Below, in pieces: positions 45,734 to 61,494 of a DNA stretch of 64,000 bases. The stretch is from Leadbetterella byssophila DSM 17132 (GTDB lineage: Bacteria > Bacteroidota > Bacteroidia > Cytophagales > Spirosomataceae). The stretch spans positions 2,108,001 through 2,172,000 of the forward strand of contig NC_014655.1 in NCBI RefSeq assembly GCF_000166395.1, given 5' to 3'. A program made the position numbers and the translations under genes. Each line of letters opens with the position of its first letter. Position 1 is the stretch's first letter. The notes beneath the pieces were generated by a model. It made no database searches and had not been told where the DNA came from. It saw only the letters and a list, made by a program, of their open reading frames with translations.

Positions 45734-45741
45734 CAAATTTA
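45734..45741 (-). promoter_or_regulatory. Candidate -7 box TAAATTTG for ffh
   Basis: TAnnTTTG match on the minus strand between the ffh ATG and the first unit of repeat array 1. A -33 box is not clear. The array is thus immediately upstream of an essential gene's promoter. Confidence 0.5.
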
Positions 45742-45750
45742 GGAAAAAAA

Positions 45751-46760
45751 CATGAATATTCTTTCTCTACTTTTTTGGCGCAAGGGTCCAGCCGTTAGGC
45801 AAGTAACCAAAAAACATGAATTTTATGATGTCCTCTTTCGCTTCGCTCAAACGGACCATAAAATTCGGTCAAAGGAACATTAGTATTTATTCTTTCGACA
45901 CTATTAAATATTAGTTAATCGCGAGGCGTCTATTAGGATAAAACTGGACTTTAATTATAAGAAGCGCCCCTTAAGCTAAAAGACATGAATTTTAATTCTC
46001 TACTTTTTTTGGCGCAAGGGGCCGTCCTTACGGAAAGTAACCAAAAAACATGAATTTTCTTCTTGTTACTTTTTTGGAGCAAGGGTCCGTCCTTACGGAA
46101 AGTAACCAAAAAACATGAATTTTATGATGTCCTCTTTCGCTTCGCTCAAACGGACCATAAAATTCGGTCAAAGGAACATTAGTATTTATTCTTTCGACAC
46201 TATTAAATATTAGTTAATCGAGAGGCGTCTATTAGGATAAAACTGGACTTTAATTATAAGAAGCGCCCCTTAAGCTAAAAGACATGATTCTTCTTGTTAC
46301 TTTTTTGGAGCAAGGGTCCGTCCTTACGGAAAGTAACCAAAAAACATGAATTTTATGATGTCCTCTTTCGCTTCGCTCAAACGGACCATAAAATTCGGTC
46401 AATGGAACATTAGTATTTATTCTTTCGACACTATTAAATATTAGTTAATCGAGAGGCGTCTATTAGGATAAAACTGGACTTTAATTATAAGAAGCGCCCC
46501 TTAAGCTAAAAGACATGAATTTTAATTCTCTACTTTTTTTGGCGCAAAGGGTCCGACAGTTCGGATAGTAGCAAAAAAACCATGAATATTCTTCTTGTTA
46601 CTTTTTTGGAGCAAGGGTCCGACCGTTCGGAAAGTAACCAAAAAACATGAATTTTATGATGTCCTCTTTCGCTACGCTCAAACGGACCATAAAATTCGGT
46701 CAAAGGAACATTAGTATTTATTCTTCCGATACCCAAATAGCTCATTAAGCTAAAAAGCAT
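45751..46760 (-). repeat. Repeat array 1: modular tandem repeats with hairpins
   Basis: Four imperfect copies of a unit containing a long hairpin (GAATTTTATG...CATAAAATTC), a short hairpin (TCCGT-N4-ACGGA type), an AT-rich spacer with ATTAGTATTTATTCTTTCGA, and GAGGCGTCTATTAGGATAAA...AAGCGCCCCTTAAGC. Distances between copies are about 299, 231 and 299 bases, the difference being one short-hairpin submodule. The minus strand here equals the plus strand of array 2. Units end about 30 bases before the 3' boundary of the group II intron. Short frames across the array are translations of the hairpins and are not genes. Confidence 0.88.
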
Positions 46761-46787: not shown

Positions 46788-48726
46788 ATCGAGTAGGAAG
46801 ATAGGGATTATTTCCCTATCTGTCCTCTCACACCACCCGGCATACGGATCCGTACCAAGGCGGTTTGTTAGAATAACGTCGTTTGATGCGTTGTTCTCCA
46901 GTAATAGTAGTCTGCAAATCCTTCGTAACCTAATTTAGTAAAGTATGAGTTTGTTAGCGTTGTTTGAACGATAGGGCTTGTCCCTGTCCGAGTATAGGAT
47001 TTACGGGTGTTCGCATGTTGGTAGGCAAGCCAGCGTTTGGCTCCCAGTTTCATTAAGTTCCGAATTCGATTACCTGCGGTCTTCCATTGCTTCCAAAGCA
47101 GAACACGCAAGCGTCTTCGCACTAGTTCATCTAGTGTTACCATCACCTTCTTATTCGTTGCTATACGAAAGTAATCCACCCAGCCGTGAATAATTTGCCG
47201 TAGTTTAGTCAGTCGCTCATGCATAGGAGTAGCTGTATTACGTCGAGTATTTTGACGTAACTTCTCTCGGATTCGTTCGATACTCTTTGCAGAGATACGA
47301 ATCTGCCAATCTCCTTGAGTTTTGAAGAAACTAAAGCCGAGTAAACTACTTTGGGAAGGTTTGCTTACCTTACTCTTTTCACGGTTCACTTTCAGTTTTA
47401 GTGTAGATTCGATGTAACTGGTGATGTTGCGCATAATACGAGTGGCGGATTTATTGCTCTTCGCGTAGATACTACAGTCATCCGCATAACGTACAAATCG
47501 ATGTCCACGGGAGCTGAGTTCCGTATCCAGTTCGTTCAGGATGATGTTTGACAAAAGTGGACTTAAAGGACTGCCCTGTGGTGTGCCCTTGGTTCGCTTT
47601 TGTTCAAGACCATGATCCATAATCCCACAACGAAGGTATTTCCCGATCAGCGCTAGGACTCGACGATCCGTAATCTTCTTGCTCAAAAGATGCATCAGTA
47701 TGTCGTGGTTCACTTGATCGAAGAATTGTTCCAAATCAAGTTCAACGACCCACGTGTAGCCCAAGTTCAGATACTCTTGCGCTTTAATGACGGCCTGATG
47801 AGCATTACGATTCGGACGGAAGCCGTAGCTGTTATCGTGAAAATCACCCTCATACTTTAACCCAAGCCATTGGGAAATGCTTTGCTGAATAACACGGTCG
47901 ATGACCGTTGGGATACCCAGCATACGCTTGCCCCCACTTGCTTTGGGAATCTCTACTTTCCGAACAGCTTGTGGGCGGTAAGTGCCAGAGAGAATATCCG
48001 AGCGCAGGGATTGCCAGTGCGTGTTAAGGTAGTCACGAAGATTATCGATCTGCATACCATCAACTCCGCTAGCACCTCCATTAGAGATGACACGATCAAC
48101 TGCGTGTTTGACATTTCGGATGTGTAATATCTCTTCCAACATAGTATTACTAAAAAAAACCTCAGGCATTGTGTTCACTTCGTTGCACGACTCAGCTAAG
48201 CTCCTCTTGCATTTTACTATCAGTTTCCGACCTACCCTCATGCAAGCAGTTCTCTTATGTGGTTCGGCTTTTAACACTTCGTCATAAACTTCATGGTTCC
48301 TTTGCCATTCTAACATTCAGACCTTCCCCTGTATAAAGTAGAGAAACAGGGTACTATGTCTTCTGCTGACTTCTGACTAAAGCATACTAGCATTATTATT
48401 CTGCTATATGTTTCTTCGCGGGCATTCGCGTATACCTTTGACAGAGTTTAGTCAGATCTCCCCAGGTAAGAACAATAACTTTCACCTCATATATCCGCTA
48501 CATTTACCATAGTGTTTCCGTACAGTTTAGGGCTTTGGCTTGTTTTGCAGCCTCACCCAACACTTGCGGCCTTGTATGTAGTTTCTGTTCGTCGGATCGA
48601 GGTTTTGCCTCAGACTTCCTTCAGATTCCACCTCACGGTGGACACCCTTGTCATAAGCTAACACTTCCCACTGTAAAGGCGTGTTCGGGACTTACACCCT
48701 AGAGTTATTGCACATGCTGGGCACAC
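46788..48726 (-). mobile_element. Group IIC intron, apparently complete
   Basis: Self-splicing retroelement. The 5' end GTGTGCCCAGC at 48726 follows directly on the T-run of a terminator; the 3' end is CCTACTCGAT at 46788. From memory of the Oceanobacillus iheyensis group IIC intron, the 5' domain (AGGGTGTAAGTCCCGAAC), the GGAATCTGAAGGAAG segment, the stretch AGAAGTCAGCAGAAG with CATAGTACCCTGT, domain V at about 46831-46864 with CCGCC...GGTGGTGTGAGAGG, and domain VI (AGATAGGGA...TCCCTATCT) all match in order. Length 1939. It encodes its own reverse transcriptase. Insertion after a rho-independent terminator is the hallmark of class C introns. Confidence 0.93.
46868..48316 (-). CDS. ltrA: Group II intron-encoded reverse transcriptase/maturase
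   Basis: Intron protein that helps splicing and copies the intron into new sites. RT motifs: GGASGVDGMQ (RT-0/1), IPKASGGKRMLGIPTVIDRV, NSYGFRPNRNAHQA, ELDLEQFFDQVNHDIL, GTPQGSPLSPLLSNIILNEL and the catalytic FVRYADDCSIYA with YADD at residues 277-280. The maturase (GIIM) part follows with IIHGWVDYFRIA and RRRLRVLLWKQWK. No HNH endonuclease domain, as expected for class C. The first ~49 residues are translated from the intron RNA core; the likely true start is the Met at residue 50 or 60. The stop lies just before domain V. Confidence 0.94.
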   Translation of the reverse strand: MLEWQRNHEVYDEVLKAEPHKRTACMRVGRKLIVKCKRSLAESCNEVNTMPEVFFSNTMLEEILHIRNVKHAVDRVISNGGASGVDGMQIDNLRDYLNTHWQSLRSDILSGTYRPQAVRKVEIPKASGGKRMLGIPTVIDRVIQQSISQWLGLKYEGDFHDNSYGFRPNRNAHQAVIKAQEYLNLGYTWVVELDLEQFFDQVNHDILMHLLSKKITDRRVLALIGKYLRCGIMDHGLEQKRTKGTPQGSPLSPLLSNIILNELDTELSSRGHRFVRYADDCSIYAKSNKSATRIMRNITSYIESTLKLKVNREKSKVSKPSQSSLLGFSFFKTQGDWQIRISAKSIERIREKLRQNTRRNTATPMHERLTKLRQIIHGWVDYFRIATNKKVMVTLDELVRRRLRVLLWKQWKTAGNRIRNLMKLGAKRWLAYQHANTRKSYTRTGTSPIVQTTLTNSYFTKLGYEGFADYYYWRTTHQTTLF

Positions 48727-48732
48727 AAAAAA

Positions 48733-57994: not shown

Positions 57995-59452
57995 ATGATA
58001 AAGAAGACCAAAATCGTGGCTACGGTAGGCCCAGCCTCAGAAAGTGAAGAGATGTTAGTGGCATTGGCCAAGGCAGGGGTAAACGTATTCCGACTGAATT
58101 TTTCTCACGGTACGCATGAAGAACACCAGGTGAGAATAGATCGGATCAAAAAGATCAACCGAGAACATGGTTTTAACTGTGCAATCCTGCAAGACCTTCA
58201 AGGTCCAAAGATCCGTGTAGGTCTGATGGAAGGCGGAAATGCAGGGGTGCCTCTAGAAACGGGACGCCGTTTCATCTTTACCAATGACGATATTGTAGGA
58301 AACTCTGAAAGAGCCTCCACTCCTTACGACGGCATGTACAAGGACGTGAAGGTAGGTGACCGCATCCTAATGGATGACGGTAAACTTGAGGTAAAAGTGA
58401 TAGAGATAGACGAAGAAAAACACGAAGTGATCACGGAAGTGGTTTACGGAGGTCTATTGAAGCAAAAGAAAGGAGTCAACCTTCCTAATACCAATATCTC
58501 TCAGCCTTCCGTAACGGATAAAGACTATAGAGATTTAGATTTCGGTCTGAAAAACGATGTAGACTGGATCGCTTTATCTTTCGTAAGAACAGCTGAAGAG
58601 ATCATTAAGATCAAGGAATATATCCGTTCCAAAGGTTCAGAAGCAAAGGTTATCGCCAAAATGGAGAAACCGGAAGCTATACAAAACATGGACGCAATCA
58701 TTGATGCCGCAGACGGAGTCATGGTAGCCCGTGGCGACCTAGGCGTGGAGATGCCTTCGGAAGAAGTGCCAATTATCCAAAAAACACTGGTAGCTAAATG
58801 TCATTTAGCGGTTAAGCCGGTAATAGTAGCTACTCAAATGCTGGAAAGCATGATTGACAGCCCTACTCCTACCCGCGCCGAAGTGGGTGATGTAGCAAAT
58901 GCCGTACTAGACGGTGCAGACGCTGTGATGTTGAGTGCTGAAAGTGCCTCTGGCAAATACCCACTATTGGCGGTACAAACCATGACTCGAACTATCCAAC
59001 ATATTGAAGAGTTCGGAAATCCATCCGTATTATACTACCGCCATCATACTCGTGTTACTGAACCCACTTACGTATCAAAAGAAAAGGACAATGATAACGT
59101 GATCATGATGGGATGTAGGTTAGCACGTGACTTGAAAGTTAAGGCTATAGTAGGTGTAACTACTTCCGGATATACCGCCTTCCGCTTGTCGCATCACCGA
59201 CCAAAATCTCAAATCTATATCGTAACGGGTAACGAGAAATTATTGACTCAATTAAGCCTTTACTGGGGTGTTAATGCTTTCTCTATTAAAGAACTTGATC
59301 AACCTGAAAACGAGTTACAACTCATAGATGAAGCAAATAAGCTGATGGTTAAGAAAGGCCTTTTACAGCCGGGAGATAAATTCATCAATATGTCCAGCTA
59401 CCCTCTGGGTAAGCAGCATAGAACGAATAATTTGACACTCATGACAGTGTAA
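57995..59452 (+). CDS. pyk: Pyruvate kinase
   Basis: Final step of glycolysis: PEP and ADP to pyruvate and ATP. 485 residues with TKIVATVGPASESEEMLVAL, NVFRLNFSHGTHEEH, LQDLQGPKIRVG, DWIALSFVRTAEEI, IAKMEKPEAI, MVARGDLGVEMP and the catalytic MLSAESASGKYPLLAVQTM. The C-terminal domain is that of the usual tetrameric type. It is a single gene ended by a strong terminator, after which repeat array 2 begins. Confidence 0.97.
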   Translation: MIKKTKIVATVGPASESEEMLVALAKAGVNVFRLNFSHGTHEEHQVRIDRIKKINREHGFNCAILQDLQGPKIRVGLMEGGNAGVPLETGRRFIFTNDDIVGNSERASTPYDGMYKDVKVGDRILMDDGKLEVKVIEIDEEKHEVITEVVYGGLLKQKKGVNLPNTNISQPSVTDKDYRDLDFGLKNDVDWIALSFVRTAEEIIKIKEYIRSKGSEAKVIAKMEKPEAIQNMDAIIDAADGVMVARGDLGVEMPSEEVPIIQKTLVAKCHLAVKPVIVATQMLESMIDSPTPTRAEVGDVANAVLDGADAVMLSAESASGKYPLLAVQTMTRTIQHIEEFGNPSVLYYRHHTRVTEPTYVSKEKDNDNVIMMGCRLARDLKVKAIVGVTTSGYTAFRLSHHRPKSQIYIVTGNEKLLTQLSLYWGVNAFSIKELDQPENELQLIDEANKLMVKKGLLQPGDKFINMSSYPLGKQHRTNNLTLMTV

Positions 59453-59458
59453 AAAAAA

Positions 59459-59480
59459 GCCCGAATTTTCGGGCTTTTTT
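59459..59480 (+). terminator. Rho-independent terminator after pyk
   Basis: Stem GCCCGAA/TTCGGGC, very short loop, followed by seven T; an A-run precedes it. Confidence 0.93.
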
Positions 59481-59546
59481 TAAAATTAATAGCTAATAAT
59501 TTCGGAAGAATAAATACTAATGTTCCTTAATTTATAGTTCTTAGTG

Positions 59547-59582
59547 ATTAGTTTTTAGTCCAAAAAGCCAAAGGTTTTTTAG
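59547..59582. repeat. Left copy of a direct repeat flanking array 2
   Basis: ATTAGTTTTTAGTCC followed by AAAAAGCCAAAGG and a T-run. The same block recurs at 61121, on the other side of repeat array 2. Confidence 0.75.
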
Positions 59583-59599
59583 GTAGCTCTTCCTTAAAT

Positions 59600-61065
59600 A
59601 TTAAATAAAATAAACTTCCTTTGACCGAATTTTATGGTCCGTTTGAGCGAAGCGAAAGAGGACATCATAAAATTCATGTTTTTTGGTTACTTTCCGTAAG
59701 GACGGACCCTTTGCGCCAAAAAAAGTAGAGAAAGAAAAATCATGTCTTTTAGCTTAAGAGGCGCTCCTTTTAATTAAGGTCCAGTTTTATCCTAATAAAC
59801 GCCTCTGGATTAACTAATAATTAATAGTTTCGGAAGAATAAATACTAATGTTCCATTGACCGAATTTTATGGTCCGTTTGAGCGAAGCGAAAGAGGACAT
59901 CATAAAATTCATGTTTTTTGGTTACTTTTTTGCGCCAAAAAAGTAACAAGAAGAACATTCATGGTTTTTTTGCTACTTTCCGTAAGGACGGACCCTTTGC
60001 GCCAAAAAAGTAGAGAAAGAAAAATCATGTTTTTTAGCTTAAGGGGCGCTTCTTTTAATTAAAGTCCAGTTTTATCCTAATAAACGCCTCTGGATTAACT
60101 AATAATTAATAGTTTCGGAAGAATAAATACTAATGTTCCATTGACCGAATTTTATGGTCCGTTTGAGCGAAGCGAAAGAGGACATCATAAAATTCATGTT
60201 TTTTGGTTACTTTTTTGCGCCAAAAAAGTAACAAGAAGAACATTCATGGTTTTTTTGCTACTTTCCGAACGGTTGGACCCTTTGCGCCAAAAAAAGTAGA
60301 GAAAGAAAAATCATGTCTTTTAGCTTAAGAGGCGCTCCTTTTAATTAAGGTCCAGTTTTATCCTAATAAACGCCTCTGGATTAACTAATAATTAATAGTT
60401 TCGGAAGAATAAATACTAATGTTCCTTTAATCGAATTTTAGAGGCCGTTCGAATGTAGTGAGAGAGGCCATTCTAAAATTCATGTTTTTTTTGCTACTTT
60501 CCGTAAGGACGGACCCTTTGCGTCAAAAAAAGTAGAGAAAGAATATTCATACTTTTTTTTTGCTACTTTCCGAACGGTCGGACCCTTTGCGCCAAAAAAG
60601 TAGAGAAAGAAAAATCATGTCTTTTAGCTTAAGAGGCGCTCCTTTTAATTAAGGTCCTGTTTTATCCTAATAGACGCTTCGCGATTAACTAATATTTAAT
60701 AGTGTCGAAAGAATAAATACTAATGATCCTTTGACCGAATTTTATGGTCCGTTTGAGCGAAGCGAAAGAGGACATCATAAAATTCATGTTTTTTGGTTAC
60801 TTTTTTGCGCCAAAAAAGTAACAAGAAGAATATTCATGTTTTTTGGTTACTTTCCGTAAGGACGGACCCTTGCGCCAAAAAAGTAACAAGAAGAACATTC
60901 ATGGTTTTTTTGCTACTTTCCGAACGGTCGGACCCTTTGCGCCAAAAAAAGTAGAGAAAGAAAAATCATGTCTTTTAGCTTAAGAGGCGATGATTTTTAT
61001 TTTAGTGTATTTTAATCCTAATAGAGGCTATCGGACTAACTAATAATTAATAGTTTGGGATCAAT
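59600..61065 (+). repeat. Repeat array 2: modular tandem repeats with hairpins
   Basis: Five imperfect copies of the repeat of array 1, but on the opposite strand, starting with the long hairpin at 59627, about 59862, 60147, 60433 and 60737. The fourth copy (60433-60481) is a divergent version with a different stem and loop. Short hairpins with TCCGT/ACGGA or TCCGA/TCGGA stems lie between, and some submodules form GTTACTTTTTT/AAAAAAGTAAC inverted repeats. Frames through this stretch, such as one at 59856-60062, translate the hairpins and are not genes. The last unit degrades after about 60985. Confidence 0.88.
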
Positions 61066-61120
61066 AAGTGTTATTTATGAGGGTAATTATGACCATTTCA
61101 ATCCTCAATATTCCTAAACT

Positions 61121-61158
61121 ATTAGTTTTTAGTCCCAAAAAGCCAAAGGCCTTTTGGG
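61121..61158. repeat. Right copy of the direct repeat flanking array 2, with hairpin
   Basis: ATTAGTTTTTAGTCC then CAAAAAGCCAAAGG, as at 59547. Here the 3' half forms a hairpin CCCAAAA...TTTTGGG with an inner GCC/GGC, 28 bases downstream of the SCP2 gene, so it may also serve as its terminator. Confidence 0.75.
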
Positions 61159-61185
61159 AATCCACTTCATCTAATTATTAAACTT

Positions 61186-61494
61186 TCACATTAGTCCCAG
61201 GATCTTCGCATACTTCATCATCGCTCCCGGATTTGAGATCTTTAGCTTGCCCATCATCATGGCCATCATGGGATTAGTATTGCCTTGAATAATAGAAAGT
61301 AGATCATCTTCTTTAACGGTGATGTTCACTTCAGCCCCATCTGCTACCCCTTCTGACACATCAATGTGGTTATCTTTCACGGTAACGAACATGTTCTTTC
61401 CTTTTAGATCAAAATTGATCTTCGTATCTATACCCTGTAAATCTGCAGGACTAACCTTTTCCTTAAGTGAGTTAAAATAATCTGTTAATGTCAT
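61186..61494 (-). CDS. SCP2 sterol-binding-domain protein
   Basis: Small protein of 102 residues. The ATG at 61494 (MTLTDYFNSLKEKV) is chosen, as the codon of the longer frame is TTG. It is an almost bare SCP2 domain: NFDLKGKNMFVTVKDNHIDV, ADGAEVNITVKEDDLLSIIQ, GNTNPMMAMMMGKLKI and the closing helix PGAMMKYAKILGLM. SCP2 domains bind lipids or acyl chains in a hydrophobic tunnel; in bacteria the ligand is usually unknown. It is transcribed toward repeat array 2. Single gene. Confidence 0.88.
   Translation of the reverse strand: MTLTDYFNSLKEKVSPADLQGIDTKINFDLKGKNMFVTVKDNHIDVSEGVADGAEVNITVKEDDLLSIIQGNTNPMMAMMMGKLKISNPGAMMKYAKILGLM

Follow-up and report, generated by a model that had tools for sequence, protein, structure and literature searches.

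A repeated hairpin of Leadbetterella byssophila belongs to an intergenic element family whose stems change by compensatory pairs

Is it the sequence or the shape of a repeated intergenic hairpin that is kept, and what might read it? Most of what is known of intergenic repeats whose hairpin shape is read comes from REP sequences and their Y1 enzymes. The question arises in the genome of Leadbetterella byssophila (a single contig of 4,059,653 bases), from which we analysed a stretch of 64,000 nucleotides, positions 2,108,001–2,172,000, called here the window. An earlier note had described a hairpin at 60433–60481 that differs in both arms from more common copies, such as that at 59627–59675. Both it and the common copies exist as described, and we call this hairpin H1. 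It is 49 nt long and the whole genome holds 49 copies in nine arrays, a count reached in two ways, by an array scan and by running covariance model R1 over the whole genome. Besides the two window arrays (Table 1), there are seven more on the chromosome and a few small fragments. The copies comprise 41 of class A, seven of class B and one of a degraded class C, which is terminal in its array (L016:2423).

Table 1. Repeat features located in the window (position 1 is the first letter of the window)
Feature	Position	Strand	Remarks
Tandem array 2, five H1-bearing units	59484..61067	+	pyruvate kinase gene on one side, convergent SCP2-domain gene on the other; neighbours by Pfam
Tandem array 1, four H1-bearing units	45740..46732	-	group II intron on one side, SRP54 (ffh) gene on the other; neighbours by Rfam, Pfam
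H1, class B copy (hairpin of the earlier note)	60433..60481	+	one base off the other six class B copies
H1, class A copy	59627..59675	+	
H1, class A copy	59862..59910	+	
H1, class A copy	60147..60195	+	
H1, class A copy	60737..60785	+	
H1, class A copy, tip with GTA	46649..46697	-	
H1, class A copy	46348..46396	-	
H1, class A copy	46117..46165	-	
H1, class A copy	45818..45866	-	
H2, short form, example (GTTACTTTTTT..AAAAAAGTAAC)	59921..59947	+	read from sequence and unit layout; cf. H2 of the relatives
Small inner hairpin in the long form of H2, example (CCGTAAGGACGG; elsewhere CCGAACGGTCGG)	59694..59705	+	by eye
H3-like unit end, example (AGAGGCG..CGCCTCT)	59757..59806	+	by eye; cf. H3 of the relatives

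The surroundings of some arrays were also examined. Directly adjoining array 1 is a group II intron with a reverse transcriptase/maturase (46868–48730, minus strand; Rfam, Pfam), and a near-identical but split version of its reading frame adjoins the array of L014 (L014:4146–5595, minus strand). Class C introns are sited right behind a hairpin with a T run, and by eye the window copy of the intron begins right after one. Within the longest array, with an H1 unit on each side, lies a two-gene module encoding HTH_3 and Gp49/DUF891 proteins (L015:5676–6309, minus strand; Pfam) that looks like a HigBA-like toxin-antitoxin pair.

H1 folds better than all of 200 dinucleotide shuffles, both for class A and for the window class B copy (fold z of -4.66 and -5.71, respectively, with RNA parameters, and of -3.79 and -5.31 with DNA parameters). 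The two classes differ at 11 of the 49 bases; ten of these make up five compensated pairs (from A to B: T-A>G-C, G-C>A-T, T-A>G-C, T-A>C-G and G-C>A-T), and the last one sits at the centre of the tip, where GAA becomes GTA. Five compensated pairs with none broken were obtained in 0 of 200,000 random placements of 11 substitutions. This own-genome covariation is real, yet it comes from a single contrast, that of class A with class B. All 19 pairs are intact in 48 of the 49 copies, the remaining one having three broken; the earlier note had named stems broken as often as intact as the finding that would speak against it, and the copies are far from that.

The 19-base loop of that note does keep its length in both classes, but it is itself foldable, as TTT-GA-GC[GNA]GC-GA-AAG (T·G, T-A and T-A, then G·A and A·G, then two pairs round a GNA triloop), and two of the five compensated pairs lie inside it. 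The tips, GCGAAGC or GCGTAGC in class A and ACGTAGT in class B, we take to be of the GNA triloop type. They thus resemble the d(GCGNAGC) mini-hairpin, except that here the tip caps a long bulged hairpin; such a tip is absent from the relatives described below, which carry a long stem and loop instead. With RNA parameters the plus strand folds better than the minus strand (-17.9 vs -13.5 kcal/mol for class A, -20.0 vs -16.4 for class B), because G·A and T·G turn into C·T and A·C on the latter; with DNA parameters the gap is small (-9.8 vs -9.0 and -9.9 vs -9.4).

Within L. byssophila the H1 core is nearly frozen in sequence. Mean pairwise difference among the 41 class A copies is 0.011, as against 0.26 and 0.18 in the 60-nt flanks on its 5′ and 3′ sides, figures that are inflated by mosaicism, the flanks being mosaics of H2 and H3-like modules.

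When 29 genomes were scanned with model R1, a single hairpin came up beyond the own copies, in a genome of the same genus (G009, E 3.9e-6). Most of its outer stem differs in sequence (TCACAAAATA/TATTTTGTGA) but pairs fully, the AT bulge is kept, and an 8-nt tip is missing. Models R2 and R3 then brought copies from five own-genus genomes (G002, G003, G006, G007, G009) and from a second genus of the same family (G101, G119, G140, G586). A family-wide covariance-model search yielded copies in at least 10 of 222 genomes, own genome included; it scored 18 candidates per genome (18 of the 49 copies were recovered in the own genome), so that its counts are lower bounds. Rescoring of 14 chosen genomes with 150 candidates each gave matches in nine, with one extra copy in G003, and no match in G001, G004, G005, G008 and G035. 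A pattern for the 3′ arm only added one copy in G004, the sixth other genome of the own genus to carry the element, and further copies in G007, where BLAST with one whole element returned 12 long matches plus shorter ones to the H2 part. Each relative has 1 to 12 dispersed copies, vs the tandem amplification to 49 in nine arrays in L. byssophila.

In the relatives H1 measures about 105 nt, with the exception of G009a (51 nt). It is composed of a 10-bp outer stem, one or two pairs by the bulge, CC/GG, a G·A mismatch and a second stem of at least 13 pairs, closed by a loop of 33–40 nt that is unrelated between most paralogues. A T run follows on the 3′ side, then a second hairpin, H2 (e.g., CCTACTTTTTTTC/AAAAAAAGTAGG), and in many own-genus copies a small G+C-rich hairpin, H3. 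H1 is the first of up to three hairpins in a discrete unit present in two genera. The non-canonical positions are conserved: the G·A mismatch occurs in 25 of 26 copies (G101a has an insertion there), and the T·G pair in all 26 distinct rows of a model-fitted alignment and in 12 of 13 distinct rows when the arms were anchored by sequence. The long loop is lost in the L. byssophila copies and in G009a.

The earlier note held that structure, not sequence, is maintained. This is supported and holds across species, where 17 of 23 stem pairs have changed on both sides, with the qualification that within L. byssophila the sequence, too, is nearly frozen. In the model-fitted alignment, with 26 distinct rows among 30 matches, 97.7% of the cells are paired and 13 of 17 pairs show both-sided change. 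Its covariation score of 0.594 was reached by 0 of 500 shuffles, sliding one arm by 1 to 3 columns lowered the paired cells to 43–58%, and RNAalifold predicted the identical 17 pairs; the number of pair types, reached by 24 of 500 shuffles, was the sole measure not beyond all of them. Among distinct rows with sequence-anchored arms, 129 of 130 outer-stem cells are paired and nine of ten positions show change on both sides (G101a and G007k omitted); for the second stem the figures are 167 of 169 cells and seven of 13 positions (omitting G007k, G009a, G009b and G009c, which have no loop or a shifted register; G009b and G009c, shifted, have 11 and 12 of 13 second-stem pairs intact).

A tree-aware test (FastTree tree, parsimony-based null, 1000 simulations, 19 distinct rows) found 99.2% paired cells vs a null maximum of 84%, and the 17 pairs changed on both sides vs a null maximum of 12; each value was reached in 0 of 1000 simulations. 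This test omits G101a and G007k, and the second stem past three pairs was blanked in G009a–c and the own classes. The 3′ offset was chosen for maximal pairing in the intact-pair, anchored-arm and tree-aware counts, a choice that the tree null did not include. G004a and the twelfth G007 copy are absent from all pair counts, and alignment A4 includes eight own copies out of 49 and is without G003c, G004a, G007i, G007j and G007k.

The relatives came mostly from structure-aware models, which biases the collection towards intact stems. The 3′-arm-only pattern served as a check on this bias: at 11 of its 14 places none of the 23 stem pairs is broken, and at G006a a single one is mismatched; the 5′ outer arm of G007k and of G004a is interrupted by an insertion, and their second stems keep 12 and 13 of 13 pairs, respectively. 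In the twelfth G007 copy, found by BLAST, the insertion is in the 3′ outer arm and all 13 second-stem pairs are present. Whole-pair changes between species were also read off for H2 (CCTAC/GTAGG, CTTAC/GTAAG, AATAC/GTATT; no statistic), and by eye, again without a statistic, H3 appears to change in the same manner.

Copies c and g of G007 match each other from TTGTTCCTTTG to GGCGACG, a stretch of about 170 nt in which the loops agree at 39 of 40 bases, and have unrelated flanks; a discrete unit was therefore copied, in the one such event seen. Their H2 hairpins differ by one compensated pair, and no clear target-site duplication is visible by eye at this pair, whose flanks are A+T-rich. G119b and G586a occupy the same gene junction in two genomes, with loops 0.89 identical, and copies are therefore also inherited in place.

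The reading that we favour, to which we give about an even chance, is a non-autonomous, REP/BIME-like intergenic element whose folded strand is recognised by its shape and which was tandemly amplified in L. byssophila. H1 would open a small non-coding element that lies between genes, is not autonomous, has been copied as a unit and measures about 170 nt in the relatives. Anatomy, covariation, the single copying of a discrete unit and the tandem amplification are observed; we infer that the folded plus strand, most likely as single-stranded DNA, would be read by a putative trans-acting protein, through the bulged base stem, the G·A mismatch beside the T·G pair and the second stem, and that a mobilising enzyme would act on the unit. 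With shape read and not base identity, the stems would be free to drift by compensatory change, while mismatch, bulge and pairing would persist. In L. byssophila the second stem and loop would have shrunk to the short GNA-triloop tip, and tandem amplification has turned the unit into mosaic arrays that recall bacterial interspersed mosaic elements. The strand-specific bulge and mismatch, the drifting stems, the indifferent loop, the copying as a unit and the tandem amplification all fit such a shape-read element; counting against a REP/BIME-like one are the lack of a cognate enzyme, of a GT[AG]G or CGTC foot and of a clear target duplication, and a co-orientation with neighbouring genes (see below) that is not predicted for a neutral repeat.

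REP sequences are short, species-specific intergenic hairpins, some of them bulged, that are dispersed or clustered and recognised as folded single strands, and REP/BIME hairpins are cut and joined by Y1 enzymes, as described in PMC6006769. H1 resembles the REP/BIME/REPIN sequences that go with RAYT (TnpA-REP) in being short, intergenic, species-specific, bulged, and dispersed or clustered. Like the GTAG-type REPs with RAYT it is a multi-copy intergenic palindrome (49 copies; in the relatives all 26 dispersed copies examined sit between predicted genes), but it has neither a GTAG/GTGG foot (0 of 26) nor, in this genome, a copy-flanked Y1 gene. Its element further differs from REPs in the three hairpins in direct succession, the long second stem and the paralogue-specific loop. 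Neither strand shows GT[AG]G or CGTC up to 6 nt from the H1 base in any of 26 sequences (G007k, G101a and G004a left out).

Two Y1 transposase (Y1_Tnp) genes are present in the L. byssophila genome, and model R1 had no match in the 3.3 kb surrounding them (L039, L040). By eye their proteins resemble subclass 1.2, for which the table in PMC6006769 gives no REP. The genes themselves sit, by eye, among restriction-modification-like genes, and near the one in L039 lie a short tandem repeat (ATTGCCTCCAGATTTTGC) and several hairpins resembling GGCTAAAGCC.

CGTC-tagged REPs, palindromic and reported also from Bacteroidetes, are described in PMC3733652 as having no known dedicated transposase, with a CGTC foot, stems of 8–9 bp and loops of 4–5 bases; H1 is far longer and has no CGTC foot (0 of 26). 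The G007 unit ends in GGCGACG, so that its minus strand starts with CGTC before the small H3, the stem of which is by eye too short for a CGTC-tagged REP. IS200/IS605-type elements have strand-specific subterminal hairpins and no obvious target duplication (in part after PMC6006769). Our element likewise has strand-specific hairpins. At its one copied pair, a discrete unit of about 170 nt between A+T-rich flanks, no clear target duplication is seen, and no such transposase was found next to its copies. The parts of the open-access literature consulted on REP-like hairpins, palindromic repeats and structured RNA motifs in Bacteroidetes do not describe it. The family, found in Bacteroidota, joins up to three hairpins with compensatory change to an unchanging non-canonical core, with no enzyme found, and one genus spans the range from 1–12 dispersed copies to 49 tandem ones. 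It opens two questions to experiment in harmless bacteria: by which protein such a shape is read, and whether selection or template switching lies behind the compensatory changes of DNA hairpins.

Because of the position bias of the copies, the main rival is a cis-acting structured RNA: the element would lie in a 5′ untranslated region or operon junction, where H1–H3 would act on the next gene through its stability or translation. At 20 of the 26 dispersed copies the right-hand gene runs in the same direction (two-sided 0.0094; 19 of 25, 0.0146, minus one orthologue), all three G009 copies are within about 100 nt of the next start codon, and covariation that includes a wobble pair is typical of RNA. 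We nevertheless consider this reading rather unlikely, since the next genes appear to be of many kinds, since the unit was tandemly amplified to 49 copies, and since one of the two window arrays comes after the pyruvate kinase gene and what is by eye a terminator. The units also lack promoter-like sites. TTTG/TANNTTTG, which we take to be the promoter motif, is absent from 17,230 bases of arrays on either strand, the window itself having only 6 and 4 per 64,000 bases, and absent within 200 nt from the start of the 26 dispersed copies, two of which have it in the 120 nt upstream. No intrinsic terminator was called in 59400–61200, a result of little weight, as the scan also missed the evident hairpin and T run behind the pyruvate kinase gene. 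Rfam 15 at curated score gave only two group II intron matches in the window and none for the array or four relatives' loci, with sub-threshold matches there at chance level. Tandem amplification and the lack of promoters incline us to DNA rather than RNA as the working form of the shape-read element. Stand-alone small RNA genes were rejected as well, the lack of a promoter-like site in the arrays arguing weakly against them.

Could the stems stay complementary with no selection on shape? Arm-to-arm template switching in replication would achieve this by mutation alone, and the process has been described for RNA hairpins (PMC8794818). It would agree with the A/B contrast of five whole pairs, with no intermediates among 49 copies, and with the young c/g pair being already one compensated pair apart in H2. 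We judge it improbable as the explanation, as the G·A mismatch, the T·G pair and the one-sided bulge, which arm copying should erase, persist amid changing stems, and as the near-frozen H1 core of L. byssophila is left unexplained. Template switching may still help to make the compensatory changes.

The loops raise a further possibility. Among ten G007 copies (45 pairs) stem identity is 0.93 and loop identity 0.62, vs 0.59 for shuffled loops, and all 25 loops measured are 33–40 nt long. In a constant-stem system with bespoke loops, new elements would be born with a fresh 33–40 nt recognition loop on species-specific stems, and L. byssophila would have lost the loops and amplified empty frames; we give this very little credence. 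Very improbable, too, is a guide element, in which each loop would be a specific recognition sequence on constant stems, as the divergent loops of 33–40 nt would allow: 0 of 25 loops match their own flanks longer than the best of 30 shuffles, a search of the whole G007 genome with the copy c element, loop included, brought up other element copies, one degraded copy-like stretch and, beyond these, nothing but weak matches that touch the loop (best E 0.011), the whole copy c element had no match in plasmids or phages, the orthologous G119b and G586a keep their loop, so that loops are not actively renewed, and the L. byssophila copies and G009a have lost it.

Several other candidates were set aside. 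A phage or plasmid origin was rejected on searches without match, the window unit against plasmids and the H1 core pattern against viral contigs adding to the copy c result. A CRISPR-like array does not agree with an H1 core spaced by related mosaic modules instead of unique spacers of one length. Integron attC sites carry R-box motifs, and these were not seen by eye in H1.

The tip TTTGAGCGNAGCGAAA is present in 16 of 395 genomes of the class, own one included. We inspected 19 tip loci: four (G244, G425) have a short CCTTT/AAAGG stem around the tip, and most have none. Some of five G190 loci have a longer stem. We treat the tip shared with these distant Bacteroidota as convergent. A tip-pattern scan of genome contigs, own genome left out, gave nine single hits in unrelated organisms, which were taken as chance. 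The loci L072–L075 (G190) and L085, L095, L096 and L099 (G244, G425) have other stems with the tip TTTGAGCGNAGCGAAA or a close one, and are possibly a separate repeat family.

H2-like palindromes of the GTTACTTTTTT..AAAAAAGTAAC type also occur without H1, as in the shorter G007 matches to the H2 part and in G035, G005 and G057 loci that match positions ~100–150 of the window unit. Copies in two genera adjoin the same kind of gene, on different sides (L154 for G119b, L148 for G586a, L151 for G003a); its protein begins MNLIQQAFQ or MKSIKQAFE, and by eye it is an ebo-operon gene. A G+C-rich mini-hairpin of about 16–17 nt (e.g., CGGACCGCCGAAGCGG or CCGAAACGTCGGACCGA) is inserted in an H1 arm of four copies (G007k at L180, G004a at L170, G101a at L153, and the twelfth G007 copy at L183). 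Other copies carry similar pieces in their H2, as does the long form of H2 in L. byssophila, and the mini-hairpin may be a second, nested repeat.
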